Assembly: GCF_004402535.1 (NCBI RefSeq)
Contig: NZ_SOEY01000018.1
Location: forward strand, 124,001-188,000
Length of the DNA: 64,000 bases
Source: Cryobacterium glaciale
GTDB lineage: Bacteria; Actinomycetota; Actinomycetes; Actinomycetales; Microbacteriaceae
Reading direction: 5' to 3'
This document shows, piece after piece, positions 46,907 through 63,351 of this stretch; position 1 is the stretch's first letter, and each line of letters starts with the position of its first letter. The notes beneath the pieces are model-generated. The model saw only the letters and a list, made by a program, of their open reading frames with translations, was not told where the DNA came from and made no database searches. Both the position numbers and the translations under genes were made by a program.

Positions 46907-47785
46907 ATGAAGCGTCGAGAGTTTCTCACTTTGTCCACCGCTGGCGCAGCCACGCTCGGTTTCGGTGCGCTCGGCGCACCGGCCACTTTCGCTGCCACCG
47001 CTCCGAAGCTACCCGGAGAGGTGTCGCGCCTGTCGAATGTGCTCACCCAGAAGGGAAAGAAGCTCTACGACAACATCGAAGTGGACATCGGCGGTGATCG
47101 TGCCCGCCTGTTCATTCCGCAGACAATTTCACGCAATTCCACCGCTTCGGTGGGGGCGGTGTGGTTCTACCACGCGGCCTCCAGCTCGCACAACGCCCTC
47201 AACGGTGGCTTCAAGTACCCCGGTGAGCTCGTCGTCGACCAGAACTCCATCGCCATCTGCATCAACGCCGGCGGCACCCAGTACACCAATTCCATCGCCA
47301 CCAATGCTCAGAAGAACGCCTGGACCTACCTGAACTCGCTCTACACCGTGCGCCGCAATTTTCTGCGGGCTACGTCCTTCGGCGGATCACTGGCCTGCTA
47401 CACCTACGGCAAGAAGCTCATCCCTTACATTCGCGGCCTGTACATGGTCAACGCCCTCTACGACAACGAGTGGCTCTACGCCTACGACACCCAGAACCAG
47501 GCGCACGTCGGCGATGCCTACAACAACAACCTCACCCTGCTCAAGGGCACCAACCCGGCGCGCATCAGCGCGACGCCGTGGACCAACAGCCGGGTCAAGG
47601 TACTCGTCTCCGATGACGCCCACCCCGATAATGTGGTCATTCCGAGCAAGAACGGACTCGCCCTGATCAATAAGATCACGCCGGTCGCCGCCGACGCCCA
47701 GGTGATGTATCACACGCTCGCCCATGAGACGCCGGGATTCGCCCACACCGACATGATGAAGACCTTCGCGCAGTGGTCCGTCTAG
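46907..47785 (+). CDS. Tat-type exported alpha/beta-hydrolase-like protein
   Basis: A 292-aa protein. MKRREFLTLSTAGAATLGFG followed by APATFAATA looks like a Tat-like signal peptide with cleavage near residue 30. A nucleophile-elbow-like TSFGGSLA, a later Asp (VSDDAHPD) and a His near the C-terminus (GFAHTD) would fit an alpha/beta hydrolase, though no close family is recognised. It precedes the polysaccharide locus and could be a secreted esterase acting on surface acyl groups (inference). Confidence 0.6.
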   Translation: MKRREFLTLSTAGAATLGFGALGAPATFAATAPKLPGEVSRLSNVLTQKGKKLYDNIEVDIGGDRARLFIPQTISRNSTASVGAVWFYHAASSSHNALNGGFKYPGELVVDQNSIAICINAGGTQYTNSIATNAQKNAWTYLNSLYTVRRNFLRATSFGGSLACYTYGKKLIPYIRGLYMVNALYDNEWLYAYDTQNQAHVGDAYNNNLTLLKGTNPARISATPWTNSRVKVLVSDDAHPDNVVIPSKNGLALINKITPVAADAQVMYHTLAHETPGFAHTDMMKTFAQWSV

Positions 47786-50176: not shown

Positions 50177-51604
50177 ATGTTCGATTTCACCACGCTGCGC
50201 CTGCACCGCACGCCGATTATTCTCGTCGCACTCGCTGCCCTGTTCGTGATCGTGGCCAGCCTGGTGCTGCCGCGCTTCGTCGCCGAGGTCGGTGTCATCG
50301 TGCTTCCGCTGACCCTCTTGGCTTTCGTCGCCGTGGCAACGCTGTTCCTGGTGCCGACGCACATCCTTCCGGCCGTTGCACTGGCCACCTTTGCGCTGAT
50401 TCCGGCCCGCGTCCTTCCCCAGGACGGCCCGATCGGCGCCCTCCCGCTGACCACCATGATCATCGTCGTCTGGGCGGTGCGTCGCCTGCTCACCGGCCCA
50501 GCCGATCTTCCGGGCCCGGCCGCGCCAGCGCCATTCCGATCAGCCACCCGCTACTTTGCCCTGCTGTTCCTGGTCTGGTCGCTGTTCTCGCTCGTGCGCA
50601 GCACCGACGTGCAGGCAAGCCTCGGCTGGATCATCAGCTTCAGCGCCGGGGTACTCCTCCCGCTATCCATCGTCAACGCCAGCCGGGAGGCCTACTGGAT
50701 TCGGCGCGTCTGGCTCGTGCTCGGAGCGTGGCTCGGAGCATATGCCGTGCTCGAGGGCGCGCTGCGCGCCAATCCGATCTGGGGCACCCTGTTCAGCGTG
50801 CTCGGCCTCAGTGATAGCCAGCACTGGTCGGTGTATCGCGCAACCGCATCGTTCGGGCATCCGCTCTTCGCCGGCTTGTTCTTTGCCGTGGCCTGCGCCC
50901 TCGCCATCGGGGTGTGGTTGCGGGAGAATTCGAAGCCTGCCCTCCTCGCTGCGGTGTTCAGCGGGCTCGGCCTCGTCGCGACCGTCTCCCGCGGCGCCAT
51001 CCTCTCAGCGGCGATCGCCATCGCCTTCGCCTACGCGGTGTCGCTCGTGCTGCGCGGCGACAAACGCTGGGGCAAATTCGCCCTGCTCGCAGTATTGATG
51101 GTCGTCGCGGTGATCGGACTGTTCCAATTCGACGCCTTCACCGCCCGCAACAACTCGATCGAAGCCGAACTCTCCTCGCAGGCGCGTGACCTCGGCGTCT
51201 GGGTGTCGCTCCAGGCCGCGAACCTCACCGGTTGGATCGGGTCGGGCCCGGGCACCTCGGGCATCACCGGGCGCCTGTTCAACGAGGTGACCATCGAGAA
51301 TTCGCTGCTGCAGCTGCTCATCAGCATCGGCCTGCCCGGAGTCGTGTTGTTCCTGCTCGTGATCGGTTCGGCGGTCGCGCACGCGCTCTCCCGCCGGGCG
51401 GTCGGGGCGGCAGCCGCTCTGGTGGCCTACACGGTGTGCATTGCCGGCTTCAACGCGATCGACGCCCTGCGCCCCATGCACCTGCTGCTCGGATGCCTGC
51501 TCATTCTGGCGTTGAATCCGACGCAAACGGATGCCGCTCCCCGGCCTGGGCCCCGCCGGGGCCGAGCAACTCTGCGCCCCAAACGGGGGTATGCGCGGCT
51601 CTAA
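50177..51604 (+). CDS. O-antigen ligase/polymerase (Wzy-like) membrane protein
   Basis: A 475-aa protein with about 11-12 predicted membrane helices and a large external loop near residues 330-390 (SSQARDLGVWVSLQAANL, then GSGPGTSGITG). This layout and the GSGPGT turn fit the Wzy_C/O-antigen ligase superfamily, which polymerises repeat units or ligates glycans outside the membrane. The ATG at 50177 follows GAAGG. It lies 76 nt upstream of the glycosyltransferase operon. Confidence 0.78.
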   Translation: MFDFTTLRLHRTPIILVALAALFVIVASLVLPRFVAEVGVIVLPLTLLAFVAVATLFLVPTHILPAVALATFALIPARVLPQDGPIGALPLTTMIIVVWAVRRLLTGPADLPGPAAPAPFRSATRYFALLFLVWSLFSLVRSTDVQASLGWIISFSAGVLLPLSIVNASREAYWIRRVWLVLGAWLGAYAVLEGALRANPIWGTLFSVLGLSDSQHWSVYRATASFGHPLFAGLFFAVACALAIGVWLRENSKPALLAAVFSGLGLVATVSRGAILSAAIAIAFAYAVSLVLRGDKRWGKFALLAVLMVVAVIGLFQFDAFTARNNSIEAELSSQARDLGVWVSLQAANLTGWIGSGPGTSGITGRLFNEVTIENSLLQLLISIGLPGVVLFLLVIGSAVAHALSRRAVGAAAALVAYTVCIAGFNAIDALRPMHLLLGCLLILALNPTQTDAAPRPGPRRGRATLRPKRGYARL

Positions 51605-51680: not shown

Positions 51681-52706
51681 ATGGGCGTGATGAATACAGG
51701 CACGACACACATCACCGTGTTGCAATCTCTGAGCCCGCCCGACGGCACCACCCGGTACGTCAACCAGGTAGTCGAGGGCGCACCGGATGCGGTGACCATG
51801 CGCTTCTTCTCCTGGCGCACCGCGCTGCTCGGTCGCTATGACGTTTTTCACGTGCACTGGCCGGAGCTGCTCATTCGTGCGCCGCGCCCGCTGAAGGCCC
51901 GACTGCGCCGCCTGGCGCTGCACGCGCTGCTGCTGCGGGCGCGGCTGCAGCACATTCCCATCGTGCGCACCATGCACAACCTGACCCCGCACGAAGCCGG
52001 CCACGGCGCCGAGACCCGGGCCCTCGACGCGCTCGACGCCCGCACGGCCCTCGTCATCCGCCTGAACCCGACCACGCCGGTGGAGCCCGAATGCCGGGCG
52101 GTCACCATTCTGCACGGCCACTATCGTGACCGCTTCAGCGCAATGCCGCGGCCCGAGTCCGTGAGCGGGCGCATCCTCTATTTTGGGCTCATTCGCCCGT
52201 ACAAGGGCGTCGAAACCCTGTTGCGGGTGTTTCGGGCGCTGCCGGGCCCCGACCTGACGTTGCGCGTCGTGGGTCGGCCGTCGAGCGGGCTCGGCGAGAC
52301 TATCACCGCCGAAGCCGCGCGGGATGCGCGCATCAGCTCGGTGCTGCGCTTCGTCTCCGACGAGGAACTGGTCGTCGAGGTCGGCGGGGCCGAACTGGTC
52401 GTTCTGCCCTACCGGGAAATGCACAATTCGGGGGTGCTGCTCGTGACGCTGTCGCTCGATCGGCCGGTGCTCGTACCGTCGACGCCGTCGAACCGAGCCC
52501 TGGCCGACGAGGTCGGGCCCGACTGGATCTACCTCTACGACGGCGATCTCACGCCCGAGATTCTGCAGGACACCCTCGAGCGGATGCGCGCGGCCGGCTC
52601 CCGGCCGCGCCCGCGGCTCGACGATCGGGATTGGAAGACCCTGGGCCAGCAGAGTTATCGCACCTACCTGCGGGCGCTACAGCTGGCCGGGCGGAGCATC
52701 CGTTGA
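51681..52706 (+). CDS. Glycosyltransferase, GT4-like
   Basis: A 341-aa GT-B fold transferase. RGRILYFGLIRPYKGVETLL-like sequence (YFGLIRPYKGVETLLR) marks the nucleotide-sugar domain and a conserved Glu-containing loop is replaced by PYREMHNSGVLLV. It would add a sugar to the growing lipid-linked unit on the cytosolic side. ATG 51681 follows GAGGGGT. Its TGA overlaps the TTG start of the flippase fusion by 4 nt, opening a chain of coupled genes. Confidence 0.85.
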   Translation: MGVMNTGTTHITVLQSLSPPDGTTRYVNQVVEGAPDAVTMRFFSWRTALLGRYDVFHVHWPELLIRAPRPLKARLRRLALHALLLRARLQHIPIVRTMHNLTPHEAGHGAETRALDALDARTALVIRLNPTTPVEPECRAVTILHGHYRDRFSAMPRPESVSGRILYFGLIRPYKGVETLLRVFRALPGPDLTLRVVGRPSSGLGETITAEAARDARISSVLRFVSDEELVVEVGGAELVVLPYREMHNSGVLLVTLSLDRPVLVPSTPSNRALADEVGPDWIYLYDGDLTPEILQDTLERMRAAGSRPRPRLDDRDWKTLGQQSYRTYLRALQLAGRSIR

Positions 52707-55621
52707 CCGCGATTCTGCCGCCCGACGCACCCGAAACGCCCGGAACTCCCGAGAAACCCGCCTCGACGACCGGACTCGGCCGCACGGCAGGCCGCGGCGC
52801 GTCGACCACCCTGGTCGGGCAGCTCATTCGCATCGGCGTACAGCTCGGCGGCATCGTCGTGCTCGGCCGGCTGCTCGACCCGAGCGACTACGGCCTGGTC
52901 GCGTCGGTCGCCGCCATCATCGGCGTCGGCGAGGTGCTGCGCAATTTCGGGCTGTCATCGGCCGCCATCCAGGTGCGCGACCTGAGCCGGCACCAGAAGG
53001 ACAACCTGTTCTGGATCAACAGCGTGATCGGGCTCGCGCTCATGTTGCTCGCGGTGCTGTGCAGCCCGCTCATCGCCACCCTGTACGGCGACGACCGGCT
53101 CGTGCTGCTCACCCAGGTGCTCGCCGGAACGTTTCTGCTCAACGGGCTCGCCACCCAGTTTCGTGCTGACCTGAACCGCAACTTCCATTTCAAGGCCCTC
53201 GCCGGGTCGGAGATCGGCGCCCAGATCGGCGGCCTCGTCATTGGCATCGTGATGGCACTGAATGGTTTCGGCTACTGGGCCCTCGCCGGGCAGCAGATCA
53301 GCCAGGGCATCCTGACCCTCCTCATTCTGGTTCCGATCACCCGCTGGTTTCCCGGCTGGTATCACCGTCGAGCGCCCATGCGTCACCTGATCATGTTCGG
53401 GTCGAACCTCGCCGGCACCCAGCTGCTCGGCTACGCCAGCCGCAACACCGACACGATCGTGATCGGCGCGACCCTCGGAGCCGGCCCACTCGGCCTGTAC
53501 AACCGGGCGTTCCAGCTGCTGCTGCTGCCGCTCAACCAGATCAACGGCCCCTCCACCCGGGTAGCCCTGCCGGTACTGGCCCGGTTGCAGGACGACCCGC
53601 CCAAGTACGACCGGTTCATTCTGCTCGGGCAGACCATCATGCTGCACGCCGTCACCATCGTGCTCGCCTTCTCCTGTGCCCAGGCCCTCCCCATCATCAG
53701 CATCGCGCTCGGCAGCAACTGGCTGGGCTCCGCCCCGATATTTCAGATTCTCGCCATTGCCGGGTTCTTCGAAGCGGCCGCCTATGCGACCTACTGGGTC
53801 TTCCTATCGAAGGGAGTCACCAAGCAAAACCTGTATTTCGCCCTGTGCACCCGGCCGCTGCTCGTCGCGTTCGTGCTGCTCGGCTCGTTCTGGGGCGTCT
53901 ACGGCGTCGCCGCCGGCTACTCGCTCGGCGTCGCCCTGATCTGGCCGATCGGCCTGTGGTGGATCAGCCGGGTCACGAACGCCCCGGCACGCGCCATGTT
54001 CCTGGCCGGAGTACGCGCCATTCTCGGCTACGGTTTTGCGACCGGAGCCAGCTGGGCCGCCGTGCAGTGGATCCCTCTGGAGCTGTCGGTCGCGCGCGTC
54101 GCACTCGGAGGGGTCGCCCTGCTCGCAGCGATCGGCCTGGTCATGCTGGTCTGGCCGATCTTTCGCCGCGATGTGCGCTCGATCGCCCAGGCCCGCAGCT
54201 TTCTGCGCTCCGCCAAATCCCCCAAGCCGGGCACCGGCAGCCCGAACGCCGACCAGCTGGCGCCCGCCCGCACGACCGCCCGCCGCCGCACACCGGGGCG
54301 CACCCGGCTGCGCATCATCCGCCGGCTGGACCGGGTGCTGCACGGGCTCGCCGCGGCATCCGCTCTGCCCTACCTGCGCGATCGCGCCGCACTGAAACGA
54401 GCGACCGACCGGCTGCGCCCATTCGACGTGCACACCGCACGGTGGCACGTGCTCGTCGCCCCACCCGGCCAGGGCAATATCGGCGACCAGGCCATGGTCG
54501 AAGCCTTTCTCGAGAACGTATCGGGCCCGGTACAGGTTCTCGTGCGCCGGCCGGCCGACGTGCGGATTCCGCCGCAGCATGCCTGGCGGGCCCAGCTCGT
54601 GCCCATCCCACACCTGGTCTACGGTGCGGGACGGATCCACCGGCAGGCCATGGCCGCGCTGGCCACCGTGCTCGACGGCGCCCTGTCGCTGACCGTGGTC
54701 GGCGCCGACATCATGGACGGCGCCTACAGCGTGCGCGCCTCCTCACGGCGAGCGGATGTTGCGAGCCTCGCCCGCAGCGTGGGTGTCGAAGCGCGCATCC
54801 TCGGTTTCAGCTGGAACGGCCAGGCCAATACGGGGGTGCGCCGCTCTCTCGCCCGGGCCGGCCGGCTGGGCACCCGACTGCAGCTGCGCGACCCGATCTC
54901 GAGCGCCCGCGCCCGCGCCGATCACCTCGCCAACATTGTCGATGTCGCCGATTGCGTGTTCGCGGCCCATACGAGCTCCGCCCTCGCCGCCACGGAATAT
55001 CTCGGCGCCACGCCGGCACCCTATGCCGTCGTGAATGCCAGCGCACTGGTCGGCCGAGGATTCGACCAGACCACGGAGTACGCCCGCATCGTCACGGCGC
55101 TGCTTCAGGCGGGGCTCCGGGTGGTGCTGCTGCCACACGTCGTGCGGTCGAGCGGCGACGACGCGGCCGCCTGCCGGGCCGTGTTCGACCGCCTGGCGGG
55201 GGCAGACGGAGTCATTCTGGTGAACCGGCTGCTCGCCCCGGCCGAGGTGCGCGGGCTGTGCGCCGGCGCCGAGATCGTACTGACCGGGCGCATGCACCTC
55301 GCCGTGCAGGCCATGTTCCACACGGTACCGGCCGTTGCGCTGTCGACCCAGGGCAAGGTCGCCGGCCTGATGCGGCTCTTCGACACCCAGGAGCTCTGTG
55401 TCGAGCCGGGCCTCGGCCTGGCCGAGCGTATGATTCCAGTCGCGCTCGGGGTGCTGGCCGATCGGAAGCGCTATCGCGACCGCCTGGCCGAACGACTGCC
55501 CGAGGTTCAGCGCCTGGCCGCCCGCAACTTCGCCGCCCTGCCGAGCGCTACCCCGTCCCGTCCCCCTGGTCAGCACCCGAGCGCCCAGCACCCGACTTCC
55601 CACAGACAAGGCCACGCATGA
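52703..55621 (+). CDS. Wzx-type flippase fused to a polysaccharide pyruvyl transferase
   Basis: A 972-aa protein in one uninterrupted frame. Residues about 25-490 form a MATE/Wzx-type polysaccharide flippase with 12-14 helices (RLLDPSDYGLVASVAAIIG, FGSNLAGTQLLGYASRNTD). Residues about 495-575 form a basic Pro/Arg linker. Residues about 580-930 form a polysaccharide pyruvyl transferase (PF04230-like: GQGNIGDQAMVEAFL, then TGRMHLAVQAMFHTVPAVAL). The flippase moves lipid-linked units across the membrane; pyruvyl transferases add ketal pyruvate from phosphoenolpyruvate. TTG start at 52703 overlaps the upstream TGA. No internal stop or frameshift is seen. Confidence 0.88.
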   Translation: MTAILPPDAPETPGTPEKPASTTGLGRTAGRGASTTLVGQLIRIGVQLGGIVVLGRLLDPSDYGLVASVAAIIGVGEVLRNFGLSSAAIQVRDLSRHQKDNLFWINSVIGLALMLLAVLCSPLIATLYGDDRLVLLTQVLAGTFLLNGLATQFRADLNRNFHFKALAGSEIGAQIGGLVIGIVMALNGFGYWALAGQQISQGILTLLILVPITRWFPGWYHRRAPMRHLIMFGSNLAGTQLLGYASRNTDTIVIGATLGAGPLGLYNRAFQLLLLPLNQINGPSTRVALPVLARLQDDPPKYDRFILLGQTIMLHAVTIVLAFSCAQALPIISIALGSNWLGSAPIFQILAIAGFFEAAAYATYWVFLSKGVTKQNLYFALCTRPLLVAFVLLGSFWGVYGVAAGYSLGVALIWPIGLWWISRVTNAPARAMFLAGVRAILGYGFATGASWAAVQWIPLELSVARVALGGVALLAAIGLVMLVWPIFRRDVRSIAQARSFLRSAKSPKPGTGSPNADQLAPARTTARRRTPGRTRLRIIRRLDRVLHGLAAASALPYLRDRAALKRATDRLRPFDVHTARWHVLVAPPGQGNIGDQAMVEAFLENVSGPVQVLVRRPADVRIPPQHAWRAQLVPIPHLVYGAGRIHRQAMAALATVLDGALSLTVVGADIMDGAYSVRASSRRADVASLARSVGVEARILGFSWNGQANTGVRRSLARAGRLGTRLQLRDPISSARARADHLANIVDVADCVFAAHTSSALAATEYLGATPAPYAVVNASALVGRGFDQTTEYARIVTALLQAGLRVVLLPHVVRSSGDDAAACRAVFDRLAGADGVILVNRLLAPAEVRGLCAGAEIVLTGRMHLAVQAMFHTVPAVALSTQGKVAGLMRLFDTQELCVEPGLGLAERMIPVALGVLADRKRYRDRLAERLPEVQRLAARNFAALPSATPSRPPGQHPSAQHPTSHRQGHA

Positions 55622-56835
55622 CACCCTCCTCGCAGACCCCGCCCGACGACGCGCGCGGGCGGGCCGCGCTCCGCCGCATCCTCTTCGTGATTCCCTCGCT
55701 GCACGGTGGCGGGGCAGAATTCGTGGCCCGCACCTGGATGGGCTGGCTCGCCGACCAGGACTACGAGGTGAGCGTCGTGCTCACCGCCGCGGAGGTGAAG
55801 CCGGAGTACCTGCCAGACCGGGTGGAGGCCGTCTCTCTCGCTGGCCGGCACGGTCACGTGCAGAAGGCCGCCGCGCTGCGCCGCCGCTTGCTCGACTGGC
55901 AGCCCGACGTGGCGATCTCCCTGCAGGCGCACCCGAACCTGGTACTGCTGACCGCGGCCCGACTGGTGCCGGCACGCCTGCGCCCGCGCGTGCTCGTGAG
56001 CGAGCGCAACCTGGTGTCGCTCGGACTGCCCGGATCGGATCTGGCCCACCGCGTGAAGATCTGGTTTGCCAAGCGCCTGTATCGGTGGGCTGACCACGTG
56101 ATCGCCATCTCGCATCCGGTCGCCGCTGAAATGGTCGCCGCCTTCGGGGTGCGCGGCGACCGCGTCACGGTCGTCGCCAACCCTGCAACGGCGAAGCTGC
56201 GCGGAACCCCGCGCGGGCAGGGCACGACCACCGCGCACGCGCAGGTTGGTGGCGACGAGGCGGGCGGCGTGGATACGATTGTGGCGCGATCGGAACGCCG
56301 CCCCGGATCGGCCAACGGCATTCAGATCGTGTTGGCTTGCCGATTGGTGGCACAGAAGCGTCCGCTGCTCGCGATCGCCGCCGCCGCCGAGCTGGCCCGC
56401 CGCGGCGTGCCCGTTGAGGTCGTCTCGTTCGGCGGCGGTCCGCTGCTGGAGGACGTGCAGGCTGCGGCCCGACAGGAGAACGTGGTCTTCCACCACCGCG
56501 GCTGGGTCGAGAACTGGTTCGACTACTTCGGCGACAACGCCGTGGCCCTGCTGACGTCGAGTCGCGAGGGCTTCGGCAACGTGCTGGTCGAGGCGGCTGC
56601 AGCCGGGTACCCCTCGGTCGCCGTCTCGGGGGCGCTCGGCGTAGCGGATGCGATTGTGCCCGGCATCACGGGCGAGCTCGCGCTGTCCGCACACCCGGTG
56701 GACCTTGCCGACGCTATCCTGCGGGCGGCCGAGCTGCCGCTCGACAACATCGAACCGTGGCTGGCGCGTTTCTCGGAGGAGGCGAGCGGCTCCGACCTGG
56801 AACGGGTGTTGCTGCGGGTCGTGGAGCGGGCATGA
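55618..56835 (+). CDS. Glycosyltransferase, GT4 family
   Basis: A 405-aa GT-B transferase. An N-terminal FVIPSLHGGGAEFVA acceptor-domain motif and a C-terminal SREGFGNVLVEAAAAGYP donor-domain motif, with the two Glu residues typical of retaining GT4 enzymes. A Thr/Gly/Ala-rich insert of about 35 residues (around 205-235) separates the domains and looks unconserved. ATGA overlaps join it to the fusion gene upstream and the pyruvyl transferase downstream. Confidence 0.9.
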   Translation: MTPSSQTPPDDARGRAALRRILFVIPSLHGGGAEFVARTWMGWLADQDYEVSVVLTAAEVKPEYLPDRVEAVSLAGRHGHVQKAAALRRRLLDWQPDVAISLQAHPNLVLLTAARLVPARLRPRVLVSERNLVSLGLPGSDLAHRVKIWFAKRLYRWADHVIAISHPVAAEMVAAFGVRGDRVTVVANPATAKLRGTPRGQGTTTAHAQVGGDEAGGVDTIVARSERRPGSANGIQIVLACRLVAQKRPLLAIAAAAELARRGVPVEVVSFGGGPLLEDVQAAARQENVVFHHRGWVENWFDYFGDNAVALLTSSREGFGNVLVEAAAAGYPSVAVSGALGVADAIVPGITGELALSAHPVDLADAILRAAELPLDNIEPWLARFSEEASGSDLERVLLRVVERA

Positions 56836-57881
56836 GAATCTTCGCCTCGGCCATGGGCCAGATCGACAACGTCGGCGATACCGTGCTGCGACGGGCATTT
56901 CTGGATGCGCTGCGAGGCGCCGGCGAGCTGCAGGTGTTCGTCGGTGCCCGGTCGGATGCCTACCTGAGCGGGCTCGGCCTGCACGACGACGATCGGGTGT
57001 ACCGCACGAGCGCGGAGTGGCGACGCGAGATTTCGCGGTCGACGCTGCGGGAGGCATCCGTCTATGCCTTCAATGCCGGGGAAATGGAGTTGCAACGCGC
57101 CTACGCGCTGCGCTACCTGCGCCTGGCTCCGCACCTCGCGCTCAACCGGCTGCGCGGCGGCCACGCAGTGCACGCCGGATTCGGGGTGCGGCAGAAGACC
57201 GGGTGGCGCATACCGGTCGCGGCGACGCTGCGCCTGTGCGATCTCGTGGCCTGGCGCGACGCGTACAGCCGCGCAGCGATGGGGCTCGGTCGGATCGCTC
57301 CCGACTGGGCTTTCGCCACCGGGGCAGCGGATGCCGACCTGCTCGCGTCGACGCCCGACCGCCCATTGCTCGCCGTGTCGGTGCGCTACAACGGGCGCCG
57401 TCCCGACGAGGTCTGGCTGGGCGCCCTGAGGGGCCTGGCCGATACCCTCGGACTGGAGATCGTGGCCGTGTCGCAGATCGAACGGGACGGCCCGCTCGCC
57501 GAGGAACTCGCCGCGTCGCTCGGCGGTACCGCTCTGGTCTGGGATGGCCCAGACCATGCCGAGCAGGAAGTGAAGCTGCGGGGCGTGTACCAGCGGTCGC
57601 TGCTCGTGGTGACCGACCGGCTGCACGCCGCCGTGATCGGACTGACCGAGGGCGCGTTGCCGCTCGTGATCGCCGACGCTGGCCCGTCAAAGGCGGCCCG
57701 CACCCTCGACGCGGTCGGCATCAAGGGCGCAACGATCGGCTGGTCACTGCCCGACCCCGCGGCACTCGAACGTCGGGCTCGCGACGTCATCAGCCGCCGG
57801 GAACCGATTCTGCGTCACGTCGTCGAAGCCCGCGCCTCTCTGCACGAGCTAACCAGCTGCATTCGAAAGCTCACCGCGTGA
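56832..57881 (+). CDS. Polysaccharide pyruvyl transferase family protein
   Basis: A 349-aa stand-alone member of the same family as the C-terminal half of the fusion protein. GQIDNVGDTVLRRAF at the N-terminus and VTDRLHAAVIGLTEGALPL near the C-terminus are the paired motifs. It probably pyruvylates a different sugar, or works with the fused copy. The start at ATG 56832 overlaps the previous gene by 4 nt and the end overlaps the next GTG by 4 nt. Confidence 0.85.
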   Translation: MRIFASAMGQIDNVGDTVLRRAFLDALRGAGELQVFVGARSDAYLSGLGLHDDDRVYRTSAEWRREISRSTLREASVYAFNAGEMELQRAYALRYLRLAPHLALNRLRGGHAVHAGFGVRQKTGWRIPVAATLRLCDLVAWRDAYSRAAMGLGRIAPDWAFATGAADADLLASTPDRPLLAVSVRYNGRRPDEVWLGALRGLADTLGLEIVAVSQIERDGPLAEELAASLGGTALVWDGPDHAEQEVKLRGVYQRSLLVVTDRLHAAVIGLTEGALPLVIADAGPSKAARTLDAVGIKGATIGWSLPDPAALERRARDVISRREPILRHVVEARASLHELTSCIRKLTA

Positions 57882-58867
57882 CCCGTTCCCCGGTCGTGAG
57901 CGTCATCGTGCCGGCCTACAACGCCGCCGAATTTCTGGGCGGCGCGATCGATCGACTGCTCGACCAGACTCTGGCCGAGATCGAGATCATCGTGGTCGAC
58001 GACGGTTCAACGGATGCGACGGCCGTGATCGGTGCGCGGGCGGCCGCCGCGCACGCGGGCGTGCACTACTTTCGGCTGGAGCAGAACGGCGGGGTCGCAC
58101 GCGCCAGGGCCCGCGCGGTAGCGGAGAGTCAGGGCGAGTTCCTGTGGTTCATCGATTGTGACGACGACTGGGCCCCGTCGGCGCTCGAGAAGCTCGTGGC
58201 GACGGCGCGGTCGACCGGCGCCGACGTCGTGGTGTGCGGTGCGGAGTACGTCTACCCCGGCCAGCGGCGCCCGCTGGCCGCGCCGCTACTGAACGATCCG
58301 ATCACCGGGGCAGAAGCATTCAGCCGGCTGCTCGACGGCGAACTCACCGGGCACCTGTGGAACAAGCTTTTCCGACATTCCCTCGCCGACCAGATCGAGT
58401 TCACCCCGGCCCGGGTGCACTCCGACCTGGCCATGGTCGCCCAGCTGTTCGCCGCGGCCGATCGGGTGGCATTCATCGACGACGTGCTCTATTCCTATGT
58501 CGTGCGCGGTGGGTCCATCATCCGCTCGGGGTCGCGCCGGGCTGAGTCGCTGCTGCTCGTGGAACAGGCGGTCACGGACGCTGCGATCACCCTCGACACC
58601 CGCATCATCGGCTCGAACTCCTACGGCTACTTTCGGCTGCGTTACGTGCTGTTGTCCGGGCTGAAGGACGCCCTGACCGGCCCCTACGACGCCGAAGAAC
58701 GCGCCGAGATCGTCGCTGAGCTGCGCTCCCGCCTGACCTGGCGCCTCGTGCTGCTCGCCGCTAGCCGCCGGGACTGGAAACGCCTGGCCCTGGCCGGTAC
58801 GGCCAAGCTGAGCGTGCCCCTGCACCGTCGCCTGCTGCGTCTGGCTGCCGAACGTGGTGCCGCCTGA
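57878..58867 (+). CDS. Glycosyltransferase, GT2 family
   Basis: A 329-aa GT-A transferase. SVIVPAYNAAEFLGGAIDRL, the DDGSTD nucleotide-binding motif and the FIDCDDDW (DXD) metal site are clear. It transfers a sugar from a nucleotide donor with inversion. GTG start at 57878 overlaps the previous stop. It is the last gene of the coupled chain and its stop is 12 nt before the shared upstream motif of the beta-helix genes. Confidence 0.92.
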   Translation: MTRSPVVSVIVPAYNAAEFLGGAIDRLLDQTLAEIEIIVVDDGSTDATAVIGARAAAAHAGVHYFRLEQNGGVARARARAVAESQGEFLWFIDCDDDWAPSALEKLVATARSTGADVVVCGAEYVYPGQRRPLAAPLLNDPITGAEAFSRLLDGELTGHLWNKLFRHSLADQIEFTPARVHSDLAMVAQLFAAADRVAFIDDVLYSYVVRGGSIIRSGSRRAESLLLVEQAVTDAAITLDTRIIGSNSYGYFRLRYVLLSGLKDALTGPYDAEERAEIVAELRSRLTWRLVLLAASRRDWKRLALAGTAKLSVPLHRRLLRLAAERGAA

Positions 58868-59249: not shown

Positions 59250-60809
59250 GTGCCACTTTCTCAGCTGCCATTTTTCCGCACGCTGCCCTTTCGCAAGCCT
59301 GATATCCGCACCCCTGCCAGCACAGCGCAGGCCGAACACCGCAAATCTGCCCGCCGCGCCACGATCGCCATAGCCGCCGTCACGGCCGTGACCCTCGCGA
59401 TCCTCGCCCCCATGATCGCGCCCATCCCGGGCGCGGCGTCTGCGGCTTCGGCGCGTACCGTCATCGACAGTTCCTCGTCGAAGATCAGCTACACCGGCGC
59501 CTGGCGCAGCACCCGCCATGCCGCCGACCGCGGCGGATCCGTGCGGTTCCAGTCCAGCGCCGGCAGCGCATCGATGTCGTTTGCAGGAAGCAGCGTCGCC
59601 TTCATCACGCGCACCACGAAGAGCTCGGGCAAGAGCACCGTCTCAATCGACGGCAAGGTCGTGGCCACCGTGAACGGCTACTCCGCGACCACCGTGCACA
59701 AGAAGACCGCCTTCAGCACGACGAGCCTGTCGAGCGGCACCCACACGATCAAGATCACTCGCACCGGTAAGAGAGACGCTCGCTCGAGCGGCACGAACAG
59801 CATCATCGACGCATTCGTCGTCAATGCGGCGACCGGCACCACACCCGCACCAGCCCCGGCACCGGCTCCGGTTCCCGCTTCGTCGCCGTCTGTGCACCGC
59901 TACGCCGACTGCCCCGCAGCGTCGACGACGGTGCGCACCGCCGACGAGCTCATGGCCGCCGTCGACCGCGCCGTCCCCGGCACCGTCATCAGGATGGCCC
60001 CCGGCACCTACCGCGGCCAGATCAACATGCACGCCAATGGAACCGCCGCCGACCCGATCTGGGTCTGCGGCCCGCGCGACGCCGTGATCAATGTCGGCAG
60101 CATCCAGGACAACCACGGCATCCAGATCAAGAACTCCTCCAACCTGGTCATTGCCGGCATGACCGTCACCAACAGCCTCAAGGGCATCAGTGTGATCAGC
60201 GGCACGAACGTGACCATCGCCGACACCCGCGTCAACCACATCGGTTACGAGGGTATTCACCTGCGCGGCTTCACCACCGGCAGCACGGTCGTCGGCAACA
60301 CGATTTCAAACACGGGAGCCCGCGACGCCTCATTCGGTGAGGGCATCTACATCGGCACGTCCGAGAACAATTGGTGCGAGCAGACCCGGTGCGGGCCCGA
60401 CCGCACCGACGGCACCCTGGTGCTCGGCAATCGAATCAGCCTCACCGGTGCCCAGCCGATCGAGGTCAAGGAAGGCACCTCCGACGGCGTCATTCGCGGC
60501 AACGTGATCGACGGAACCAACGCCATGAGCAACGCTCAGGAATGGATCAAGGTCAAGGGCAACGACTGGACGATCGACGGCAACCAGGGAGCCAGCAGCC
60601 CCCTGCACGGCTACGCGGTCAACGGGAGTGTCGCCGGCTGGGGCCTGCGCAACACCTTCACCGACAATTCGGGAGCGGTGAACGCCGATGGCTACGCCTT
60701 CTTCATCCACGAGAAGGGCAGCAAGGGGTCGAGCAAGACCGACCTGTCGTGCTCCAATTCGGTCACCCGCGCCGCCGAGGGATTCTCCAACATCGCCTGC
60801 ACCCGCTAG
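59250..60809 (+). CDS. Secreted beta-sandwich/right-handed beta-helix protein 1
   Basis: A 519-aa exported protein. The signal peptide or anchor lies at about 33-67 (cleavage after ASA). Residues 70-192 form a beta-sandwich module with a repeated GSVRF...SVAFITRTT...STVSIDGKVVATV pattern that resembles carbohydrate-binding or cell-surface domains. A Pro/Ala linker follows, then residues 216-519 form a right-handed beta-helix (PbH1 repeats: NLVIAGMTVTNSLKGISV, VTIADTRVNHIGYEGIHL). Paired cysteines (WVCGPRD, NNWCEQTRC, SNIACTR) would be disulfides. It could be a lyase, epimerase or structural surface protein; no catalytic residues are certain. GTG start after CCGGAGGACTCCACC. Confidence 0.85.
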   Translation: MPLSQLPFFRTLPFRKPDIRTPASTAQAEHRKSARRATIAIAAVTAVTLAILAPMIAPIPGAASAASARTVIDSSSSKISYTGAWRSTRHAADRGGSVRFQSSAGSASMSFAGSSVAFITRTTKSSGKSTVSIDGKVVATVNGYSATTVHKKTAFSTTSLSSGTHTIKITRTGKRDARSSGTNSIIDAFVVNAATGTTPAPAPAPAPVPASSPSVHRYADCPAASTTVRTADELMAAVDRAVPGTVIRMAPGTYRGQINMHANGTAADPIWVCGPRDAVINVGSIQDNHGIQIKNSSNLVIAGMTVTNSLKGISVISGTNVTIADTRVNHIGYEGIHLRGFTTGSTVVGNTISNTGARDASFGEGIYIGTSENNWCEQTRCGPDRTDGTLVLGNRISLTGAQPIEVKEGTSDGVIRGNVIDGTNAMSNAQEWIKVKGNDWTIDGNQGASSPLHGYAVNGSVAGWGLRNTFTDNSGAVNADGYAFFIHEKGSKGSSKTDLSCSNSVTRAAEGFSNIACTR

Positions 60810-60861: not shown

Positions 60862-61335
60862 GGCCGTCAAAGGGCGCCGCATGCACCCGCGAACGCCTCA
60901 TGATCACGGCTGACAGAATCTCAAGAGTTCCAAATTGACTCTAGGCACTTTCACAGGAATGACGGATGCGCCGACCGGCGACCACTCGTGGCCGCTCGAA
61001 ATTCGCACCCCCTGCTCGCGGGGCAGAACCCACAATGGGCAATAGCACTGGTCAGGGCCAAATCCAGAGGTCTTCTCAGTTTCGCCCGACCTGCCAACCG
61101 GCAGGGGTACGCGGCCCTCTCGCGCGCGCCCGCGCGAGAAAAGGCCGCGGCATCCGCTTAAATTGTGCCCACAAACCCATTTGCACACGGGTAACGCGCA
61201 GCAGCTCAGACGCTAATTGACGAAGTGATCACGGCAGCACAACCGCCGAAAAATCACAAAGATCATGTGCGTTTGCGAAGCCTTCGGGTTCACGGACGTA
61301 ACCACCCCGTCCCTGAACATCCGGAAGGTCCCACC
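60862..61335 (+). other. Leader of the second beta-helix gene
   Basis: A gap without a supported gene. It holds the shared motif at 60947, a perfect CCTGCC-AACC-GGCAGG hairpin (61090-61105), a larger hairpin of CTCGCGCG/CGCGCGAG arms inside GCGGCC/GGCCGC arms (61111-61148), and a ribosome site before 61336. Confidence 0.6.
60947..60959 (+). promoter_or_regulatory. Shared 13-bp motif upstream of beta-helix gene 2
   Basis: ACTTTCACAGGAA identical to the copy at 58880, 389 nt before the start codon at 61336. TTGACT (60935-60940) stands just upstream and might be a -35 element. Confidence 0.55.
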
Positions 61336-63351
61336 ATGTTGTTCCCCCGCTTCACCCGACGTGCGAGCATCGCGGCCGTTGCCATCGCCGCGCTGGTTCC
61401 CCTCACCGCCATCATTCCCGTGGCGACGGCCTCCGCCGCAACGGCGCCCGCCGGCACCTCGGTGATCGACAGCACCTCCGCCCAGATCACGTACGCCGGT
61501 ACCTGGCGCAGCACCGGCTCGCCCTCCGACCACGGCGGGTCCATTCAGTTCGCTTCGTCAAGCTCAAGCGCCTCTCTCACCTTCACCGGGTCGACCGTGG
61601 CCTACGTAGCCCGTACGACCCCCAGCTCGGGCACGAGCACGATCGCCATCGACGGTACGACCGTCGCCACCGTTGACGGCTACTCGGCGACGACGACATA
61701 CCAGCAGGTGCTGTTCGCCACGTCGAACCTCTCCGGCGGCACGCACACCATCACGGTCAGCCGCACCGGCCAGAAGAATGCCAGCTCGACCGGCACCGGA
61801 AGCATCGTCGACGCCTTCGTCACCCTCACGCCGGCCGAGGCCACCGTTCCGGTGCCGACCCCGGTTCCCACGCCCACGCCCACGCCGACGCCGGTTCCGA
61901 CACCCACGCCGACACCGACACCGGTTCCGACACCCACGCCGACACCGACACCGGTTCCGACACCCACGTCGACGCCCACGCCCACACTCGCCCCGACGAC
62001 CGTCGGGGCGGCTCCGGTCGGCTCAACCACCTTCGACAGTGAGTCGGCGTCGGTGAAGTATTCCGGCACCTGGCGTACCTCGGGCTCGGCCAATGACTCG
62101 GGTGGATCGGTCAAGTTCTCGACCGCCTCGAGCAGCGCCTCGTTCACCTTCCAGGGCACGAGCGTCGCGTTCATCACCCGCCTGACCAGCAGCTCCGGCA
62201 CAAGCAACGTGGCCATCGACGGCAAGGTGGTCGCCACGGTCAACGGTTACTCAGCCACCACCGCCTACAAGAAGACAGCCTTCAGCACGACGAGCCTGTC
62301 GGCCGGCACGCACACCATCACGGTGACCCGCACCGGCCAGAAGGATGCCCGCTCCACCGGCACCAGCAGCATCGTCGACGCCTTCGTCGTGTCGGCCGTG
62401 CCGAGCACCGCGCCGAGCCCGGCACCGATCAGCACCCACCGCTACGCCGACTGCCCCGCCGCGACCGTCACCGTGACCACGGCTCGGGAGCTCTTGGCCG
62501 CCGTACAGCAGGCCCAGCCCGGAACGGTCATCAAGATGGCGCCCGGCACGTACAACGAGCAGATCAACATGACCGTGAACGGAACCGCTGCCAACCCGAT
62601 CTGGGTCTGCGGTCCGCGGAACGCCGTCGTCAACCCCGGAAGCATCCAGAACAACCACGGCATCCAGATCTCCAACTCGTCCAACCTTGTCATCGCTGGA
62701 ATGACCGTCACCAACAGCCTCAAGGGCATCAGCGTGATTCGCAGCAGCAACGTCACCATCGCTGACACGCTCGTCGACAACATCGGCTATGAGGGCATCC
62801 ACCTGCGTGCCTTCACCACCGACAGCAAGGTCGTCGGTAACACCATCAAGAACACCGGCAAGCGCGACCCGTTCTACGGTGAGGGCATCTACATCGGCAC
62901 CTCGGAGAACAACTGGTGCGCCCAGACCAGCTGCCAGCCGGACCGCACCGACCGCACGCTGCTCATGGCCAACACCATCAGCCTCACTGGCGCCCAGCCG
63001 ATCGAGGTCAAGGAAGGCACCTCGGCCGGCATCATCCGCGACAACGTGATCGACGGCGCCGCAGCCATGCCGCGCGCCGAGGAGTGGGTCAAGGTCAAGG
63101 GCAACGACTGGAGCATCTACAACAACCAGGGCAAGAACAGCACCGCGCACGGCTTCGCGGTGAACGGGAGTGTCGCCGGCTGGGGCCTGCGCAACTCCTT
63201 CTACGGCAACACCGCTCCGGTCGGCGCCGCCGGCTACGGCTTCTTCATTCACGAGCAGGGCAGCAAGGGTGCCAGCGGCACCAAGGTCTACTGCTCGAAC
63301 ACCGTCACGGCTGCAGGCTCGGGTTTCTCAAACCTGGCGTGTGTTTCTTAG
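61336..63351 (+). CDS. Secreted beta-helix protein 2 with duplicated beta-sandwich module
   Basis: A 671-aa paralogue of the protein at 59250. The signal peptide ends near residue 34 (ATASAATA). Module 1 (about 42-165) and module 2 (about 230-352) are copies of the same beta-sandwich and are joined by a Pro/Val/Thr repeat (about 172-218). The C-terminal right-handed beta-helix (about 365-671) shares long identical stretches with protein 1 (GMTVTNSLKGISVI, SLTGAQPIEVKEGTS). Protein 1 has only one module. Start ATG 61336 after GGAAGG; the frame upstream is not coding. Function: surface, polysaccharide-related, catalytic role unproven. Confidence 0.85.
   Translation: MLFPRFTRRASIAAVAIAALVPLTAIIPVATASAATAPAGTSVIDSTSAQITYAGTWRSTGSPSDHGGSIQFASSSSSASLTFTGSTVAYVARTTPSSGTSTIAIDGTTVATVDGYSATTTYQQVLFATSNLSGGTHTITVSRTGQKNASSTGTGSIVDAFVTLTPAEATVPVPTPVPTPTPTPTPVPTPTPTPTPVPTPTPTPTPVPTPTSTPTPTLAPTTVGAAPVGSTTFDSESASVKYSGTWRTSGSANDSGGSVKFSTASSSASFTFQGTSVAFITRLTSSSGTSNVAIDGKVVATVNGYSATTAYKKTAFSTTSLSAGTHTITVTRTGQKDARSTGTSSIVDAFVVSAVPSTAPSPAPISTHRYADCPAATVTVTTARELLAAVQQAQPGTVIKMAPGTYNEQINMTVNGTAANPIWVCGPRNAVVNPGSIQNNHGIQISNSSNLVIAGMTVTNSLKGISVIRSSNVTIADTLVDNIGYEGIHLRAFTTDSKVVGNTIKNTGKRDPFYGEGIYIGTSENNWCAQTSCQPDRTDRTLLMANTISLTGAQPIEVKEGTSAGIIRDNVIDGAAAMPRAEEWVKVKGNDWSIYNNQGKNSTAHGFAVNGSVAGWGLRNSFYGNTAPVGAAGYGFFIHEQGSKGASGTKVYCSNTVTAAGSGFSNLACVS
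61861..61980 (+). repeat. 30-bp tandem repeat, four units, coding for a Pro-Thr linker
   Basis: Units of 30 bp start at 61861, 61891, 61921 and 61951. The middle two are identical; the outer two differ at a few bases. Each encodes PVPTPTPTPT or a close variant. Confidence 0.93.

Follow-up and report, generated by a model that had tools for sequence, protein, structure and literature searches.

Described systems and the architecture of the fusion gene

In the colanic acid cluster, the flippase gene wzxC adjoins wcaK, the gene for a pyruvyl transferase. The subject of this report is a gene that carries both kinds of protein in one open frame: in a 64,000-nucleotide stretch of Cryobacterium glaciale DNA (hereafter the window; contig NZ_SOEY01000018.1 of assembly GCF_004402535.1, positions 124,001 to 188,000), positions 52703-55621 of the forward strand encode a 972-residue translation in which a Wzx-type MOP flippase is followed by a linker and a polysaccharide pyruvyl transferase (PS_pyruv_trans) domain.

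The pyruvyl transferases studied to date use lipid-linked precursors as substrates (PMC10435577; PMC6801904). In vitro, CsaB requires an acceptor that bears a lipophilic appendage (PMC10435577); evidence for WcfO points to an undecaprenyl-linked disaccharide as its substrate before export, according to work on ExoV, pyruvylation may be important for polymerisation and for efficient export, and for xanthan the stage of pyruvylation is not settled (PMC6801904). On the flippase side, acetylation alters transport by some capsule flippases (PMC11759038), some Wzx proteins distinguish terminal sugars and others are relaxed (PMC6436433), and substrate selection by MOP flippases has been called enigmatic (PMC11759038). 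Two systems come close to what is described below. MprF, a lysyl-phosphatidylglycerol synthase and flippase, likewise modifies and flips a lipid within one polypeptide (PMC8131360), but it belongs to different families and acts on a phospholipid; the present protein matches only MOP and PS_pyruv_trans families in Pfam, and neither the synthase nor the flippase domain of MprF is among its three Pfam families at E 0.01. TacF is a MOP flippase that monitors a substituent of its own substrate, but the abstract that describes it mentions no modifying enzyme within the TacF protein (PMC13385700). No paper on a fusion of Wzx and pyruvyl transferase was found by title or by the start of the abstract among the matches listed, and a term search of a study of Cryobacterium genomes (PMC7381226) returned neither polysaccharide, nor flippase, nor pyruv-. 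What appears to be new is the single-polypeptide architecture of these two families, whose parts were already known.

The 972 codons contain no inner stop, and all three Pfam matches exceed their cut-offs, which agrees with the reading of the first-pass annotation that one polypeptide joins two functions normally found on separate proteins; the families do usually lie on separate genes, as in the split relatives discussed below. The flippase half (approximately residues 30-490, positions 52790-54172) matches Polysacc_synt_3 (PF13440) at residues 53-344, with E 2.6e-73 and 247.3 bits against a cut-off of 23 over positions 1-292 of the 293-position profile, and Polysacc_synt (PF01943) at residues 30-296 (161.2 bits, cut-off 28.2). 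The transferase half (residues 576-972, positions 54428-55618) matches PS_pyruv_trans (PF04230) at residues 699-882 with 41.8 bits against a cut-off of 25.3, the best stretch covering profile positions 99-278 of 280, and carries the motif GNIGD together with R729, H865 and K885. Between them, the linker (approximately residues 491-575, positions 54173-54427) is basic, with 18 lysines and arginines against 4 aspartates and glutamates over residues 488-560, a composition that fits a cytosolic position; from about residue 535 its second part can be aligned with the N-terminus of four split transferases. Most of the flippase half has a G+C content of 62-72%; in the transferase half it is 70-74%. 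A simple hydropathy calculation gave only overlapping windows, without a usable span count.

Against the narrower NCBIfam models, the flippase half scores best with PRK10459 (NF007773, 'MOP flippase family protein', which we take to be the WzxC model), reaching 201.2 bits where the cut-off is 273, and the protein gives 35.6 bits with the CsaB model TIGR03609 (cut-off 213.1) and 17.5 bits with the WcaK model NF007452 (cut-off 399). Since these cut-offs are missed, the two halves are members of broad families and not of the PRK10459, CsaB or WcaK subgroups. The likeness to wzxC-wcaK therefore extends to a Wzx gene beside a pyruvyl transferase gene and to the best-scoring flippase model, and the difference to two genes there and one here, with both the WzxC and the WcaK thresholds out of reach.

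A full-length product is likely to be made from the gene. At the column of residue 1, a start codon is found in 16 of the 17 aligned fused rows (14 TTG, one GTG, one ATG; the row of L047, from a Microbacteriaceae metagenome-assembled genome, has a gap there), with GGAG just upstream in 13 of those 16, and the TTG start of the window's gene overlaps the stop of the gene before it within TTGA. Eight inner positions at which translation might start were compared across the 17 rows, and a ribosome-binding-like word occurs only at residue 583, which is GTG in 11 rows and is preceded by GGTGG in two of these (the window and L045); at the other seven, none of the words tried was present in any row. 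With a conserved start column that carries GGAG, and such a word at residue 583 only, re-initiation inside the frame is unlikely.

Distribution, split relatives and origin of the fusion

The search for this domain pair in other genomes, which the first-pass annotation had suggested, was productive. A full-length, single-frame fusion is present in 16 of 57 Cryobacterium genomes, that of the window included; one further genome (taken, from frame and match, to be Cryobacterium sp. Y11) matches the flippase part only, in two others, taken for RYN_54 and RYN_91, the halves are adjacent but in different frames, and the remaining 38 give more distant matches at best, which in a few genomes lie side by side as a pair. 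An assembly error or a frameshift near 54200-54450, named beforehand as what might undo the reading, is rejected, the frame being unbroken through the linker in many separately assembled genomes. A contig scan that relied on six short patterns of peptide sequence picked out 53 loci. In 16 of them the two halves share a single frame, namely in 15 Cryobacterium records and in the metagenome-assembled genome LF-bin-354 (L047). Broader draws, which overlap with one another, were made at unequal thresholds and were limited to two or three scored candidates in each genome, contain fusions in 5 of 299 family genomes and 5 of 248 order genomes (E 1e-90), 2 of 246 class genomes (E 1e-100) and 1 of 396 phylum genomes (E 1e-60). 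Two of the order-level fusions, G895 and G834, lie outside the family; both have continuous frames with all three Pfam families above cut-off, and each is the sole fusion in its own family (1 of 13 and 1 of 12 genomes). The family of G895 is probably Kineosporiaceae, since another member of that family carries a pair identical to the one in Quadrisphaera granulorum.

Loci whose two halves share a strand and lie within 600 nt of each other number 47 plus the window, duplicate loci of fused genomes having been left out beforehand, and divide into 19 fused and 29 split, three of the latter being duplicate sequences. The split pairs, from Microbacterium, Leifsonia, Quadrisphaera, Pseudomonas, Halopseudomonas and Thauera among others, have related halves in the same order but on separate genes, and in 22 of 29 (19 of 26 distinct) a candidate start of the transferase overlaps the stop of the flippase by 4 nt, an upper figure because for one of them (L065) comparison by eye with its relatives favours a start 26 nt farther downstream; in the other seven the start lies elsewhere. 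RYN_54 and RYN_91, the closest split relatives, are both among the 22. These relatives look like translationally coupled pairs, and because they combine a 4-nt overlap with a transferase N-terminus that can be aligned to the linker, a slight shift of frame close to the overlap, perhaps of 1 nt, could have yielded the fusion. As a separate observation, the pairs of Pseudomonas, Halopseudomonas and Thauera (L051, L052, L062, L065, L067, L068) form one group in the tree of concatenated halves (100/99), and transfer of the pair between phyla is possible; in Pseudomonas-type genomes, fusions were looked for by the six-pattern scan only.

The tree of concatenated halves (40 rows, 37 of them different, eight near-identical fused rows having been dropped beforehand) needs three changes between fused and split states, and the starred branches force at least two, a count that cannot separate gain from loss. 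A single clade of all fused rows was rejected in an approximately unbiased (AU) test on these rows (p-AU 7.92e-6, log-likelihood 99.1 lower), made after trees from part of the data had been seen; two of the fused loci, L120 and L121, form long branches, and the letter make-up of L120 is odd. Given this rejection, the simplest reading of the data is that the fusion had at least two origins. One old fusion followed by several later splits seems less likely, because every split would need to recreate the same overlap. The trees conflict on whether the fusions of L047 and of Cryobacterium share one origin: in the flippase tree, L047 falls with the Cryobacterium clade to the exclusion of RYN_54 and RYN_91 (94/84), and the transferase tree (96/95) and the concatenated tree (89/96) place L047 outside those two. 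If the fusion did arise repeatedly, this would be evidence that both proteins share a substrate also where their genes remain separate.

Both halves are under purifying selection. Across 14 pairs drawn from the 17 rows (nine with the window and five close pairs), the ratio of nonsynonymous to synonymous substitution rates (dN/dS) is 0.042-0.184 for the flippase, 0.131-0.259 for the transferase and 0.225-0.518 for the linker. In the transferase half, GNxGD (GNIGD at residue 591), R729 of RD, H865 of GRMH and K885 of QGKV are invariant over 32 aligned rows, made up of six fused rows and 26 of 32 split ones. Mutants of CsaB in R148, H308 and K328 are affected in the binding or turnover of phosphoenolpyruvate (PEP) (PMC10435577), and the three conserved residues are paired with these by motif order only, not by an alignment with CsaB.

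A proposed role and its rivals

We consider it probable that the gene encodes a bifunctional protein of envelope polysaccharide synthesis, in which fusion most plausibly provides a 1:1 stoichiometry and a local hand-over that favours pyruvylated units. On the cytosolic side, the C-terminal domain would use PEP to place pyruvate on a sugar of an undecaprenyl-linked repeat unit, which the attached Wzx-type flippase would then carry across the membrane. The arrangement would have come about through a minor mutation that shifted the frame in an operon whose two genes were already overlapping by 4 nt and translationally coupled, and its benefit would lie in the fixed stoichiometry and in the hand-over of substrate at the membrane, pyruvylated units being favoured and others not strictly excluded. 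Preferential export of modified units is proposed because known transferases act on lipid-linked precursors and because flippases can respond to substituents, and physical coupling is an economical reading of one frame, two families that are usually separate, apparently repeated fusion of neighbours and purifying selection on both halves.

Several observations weigh against this proposal. As the CsaB and WcaK thresholds are missed, the predicted transferase activity rests on the broad Pfam family, and sequence searches among solved structures found no relatives. Counted by lineage, split pairs are commoner than fused ones; in 13 of the 14 pairs compared, the transferase half has evolved faster than the flippase half; L086, a distant relative that is not among the 32 rows, lacks the GNxGD pattern, and in the fused L120 RE replaces RD. 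In Cryobacterium sp. Y11, the flippase gene (L050:6001-7677, 558 residues) has no transferase domain. The first part of its linker is retained, its tail (HRQGP) and ATGA junction resemble those of the fused genes, and it is followed by the same three genes as the fusion (GT4b, PVT2 and GT2c, described below), so that the operon is kept; a genome search of Y11 gave no further match to the fused protein, in a search that does not list PVT2-type proteins either. Within the flippase tree, Y11 and the fused Cryobacterium rows are sisters, inside the group that holds L047. This fits loss of the domain from a fused gene; a deletion across an unfused pair is another possible route. Since Y11 retains both flippase and operon, this flippase lineage can persist without the transferase domain, and the apparent dispensability of the coupling in this strain argues against an obligatory gate. 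Its linker also contains a run of GCTACG repeats.

The earlier suggestion that fusion couples modification to export has accordingly fared unevenly: a physical coupling is supported by the single frame, the apparently repeated fusion and the selection on both halves, and the statement that only pyruvylated units are flipped is, in view of Y11, unsupported as worded. A more specific version of the proposed hand-over, in which a transferase placed at the cytosolic mouth of the flippase would pass on each freshly pyruvylated unit as a form of quality control, evolved at least twice and lost in Y11 when the polymer or the specificity of the flippase changed, is put forward tentatively, as a possibility that we would not favour.

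Among the alternatives, the one that survives best is that two overlapping, cooperating genes were joined by a frame change without any functional effect, the halves acting independently. The candidate 4-nt overlap, by which a small mutation would be enough, the few clades in which the fusion is met and the absence of the domain in Y11 all lend it some weight, but retention in 16 of the 57 genus genomes, purifying selection on both halves and the probable origin of the same fusion more than once speak against it, and we regard it as rather unlikely. A strict gate, in which the flippase would work only under licence from the transferase domain and pyruvylated units alone would cross, could appeal to the physical fusion itself and to two precedents, TacF, which monitors phosphocholine (PMC13385700), and the Wzx proteins that distinguish terminal sugars (PMC6436433); it is nonetheless improbable, as Y11 retains the flippase without the domain and as checking of the TacF type requires no fusion. 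That assembly error, frameshift or internal re-initiation leaves two proteins in place of one is very improbable indeed, the GGTGG before GTG 583 in two of the 11 rows being set against seven other inner starts without such a word, GGAG at the gene's own start in 13 of 16 rows and the agreement of many separately assembled genomes, by which the assembly version is already refuted. The fused genes, their split relatives and the strain without the enzyme domain form a natural series for the question whether modification is coupled to flipping.

Operon and surrounding cluster

The fusion gene is the second in a tightly packed row of five on the forward strand, the first three junctions of which are 4-nt overlaps. 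GTa (51681-52706), which runs into the start of the fusion, is glycosyltransferase-like by sequence and synteny, its glycosyltransferase Pfam matches lying below cut-off; GT4b (55618-56835), a glycosyltransferase of family GT4 by Pfam and sequence, overlaps the stop of the fusion through ATGA and is joined in the same way to PVT2 (56832-57881), a free second pyruvyl transferase (PF04230, 31.3 bits, above cut-off); and GT2c (57878-58867), a GT2-family glycosyltransferase (PF00535, E 5.6e-35), closes the row. PVT2 had been noticed in the first-pass annotation and is confirmed here, but the argument that it makes a dedicated role of the fusion likelier carries little weight, since each trait also occurs without the other: the stretch examined of L047 has the fusion and no second transferase, and RYN_54 and RYN_91 have a second transferase without the fusion. 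In five Microbacterium loci with a split pair (L055, L056, L058, L060, L061), a PVT2-like gene lies on the opposite strand, 3.2-5.0 kb downstream and not in the operon.

Upstream of the row, a Wzy-like protein is encoded at 50177-51604 (+), with a PF04932 match of 27.2 bits below the cut-off of 31.7. Just past the end of the window follows an oppositely oriented group with genes for a glycosyltransferase, for a PF04230 protein and for a Wzz/ATPase protein; a LytR-CpsA-Psr protein is encoded farther on, and the genome's two matches to the PF02397 sugar-transferase family lie on other contigs. Together, this context looks like a cluster of Wzx/Wzy type for an envelope polysaccharide.

Some further features of the neighbourhood may be recorded. 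The PF04230 protein of the oppositely oriented group, the third of its kind here, lies at L119:1516-2601 (-), about 516-1601 bases beyond the end of the window, and scores 21.1 bits, below cut-off. Downstream of the operon, proteins with beta-helix and CE2_N-like Pfam matches are encoded at 59250-60809 and 61225-63351 and possibly act on polysaccharide. At 46907-47785, a 292-residue protein has an N-terminus that by eye resembles a twin-arginine translocation (Tat) signal, and no Pfam match; a protein of this type adjoins the cluster in Cryobacterium loci and is found also near the fused genes of L120 and L121, outside the family.

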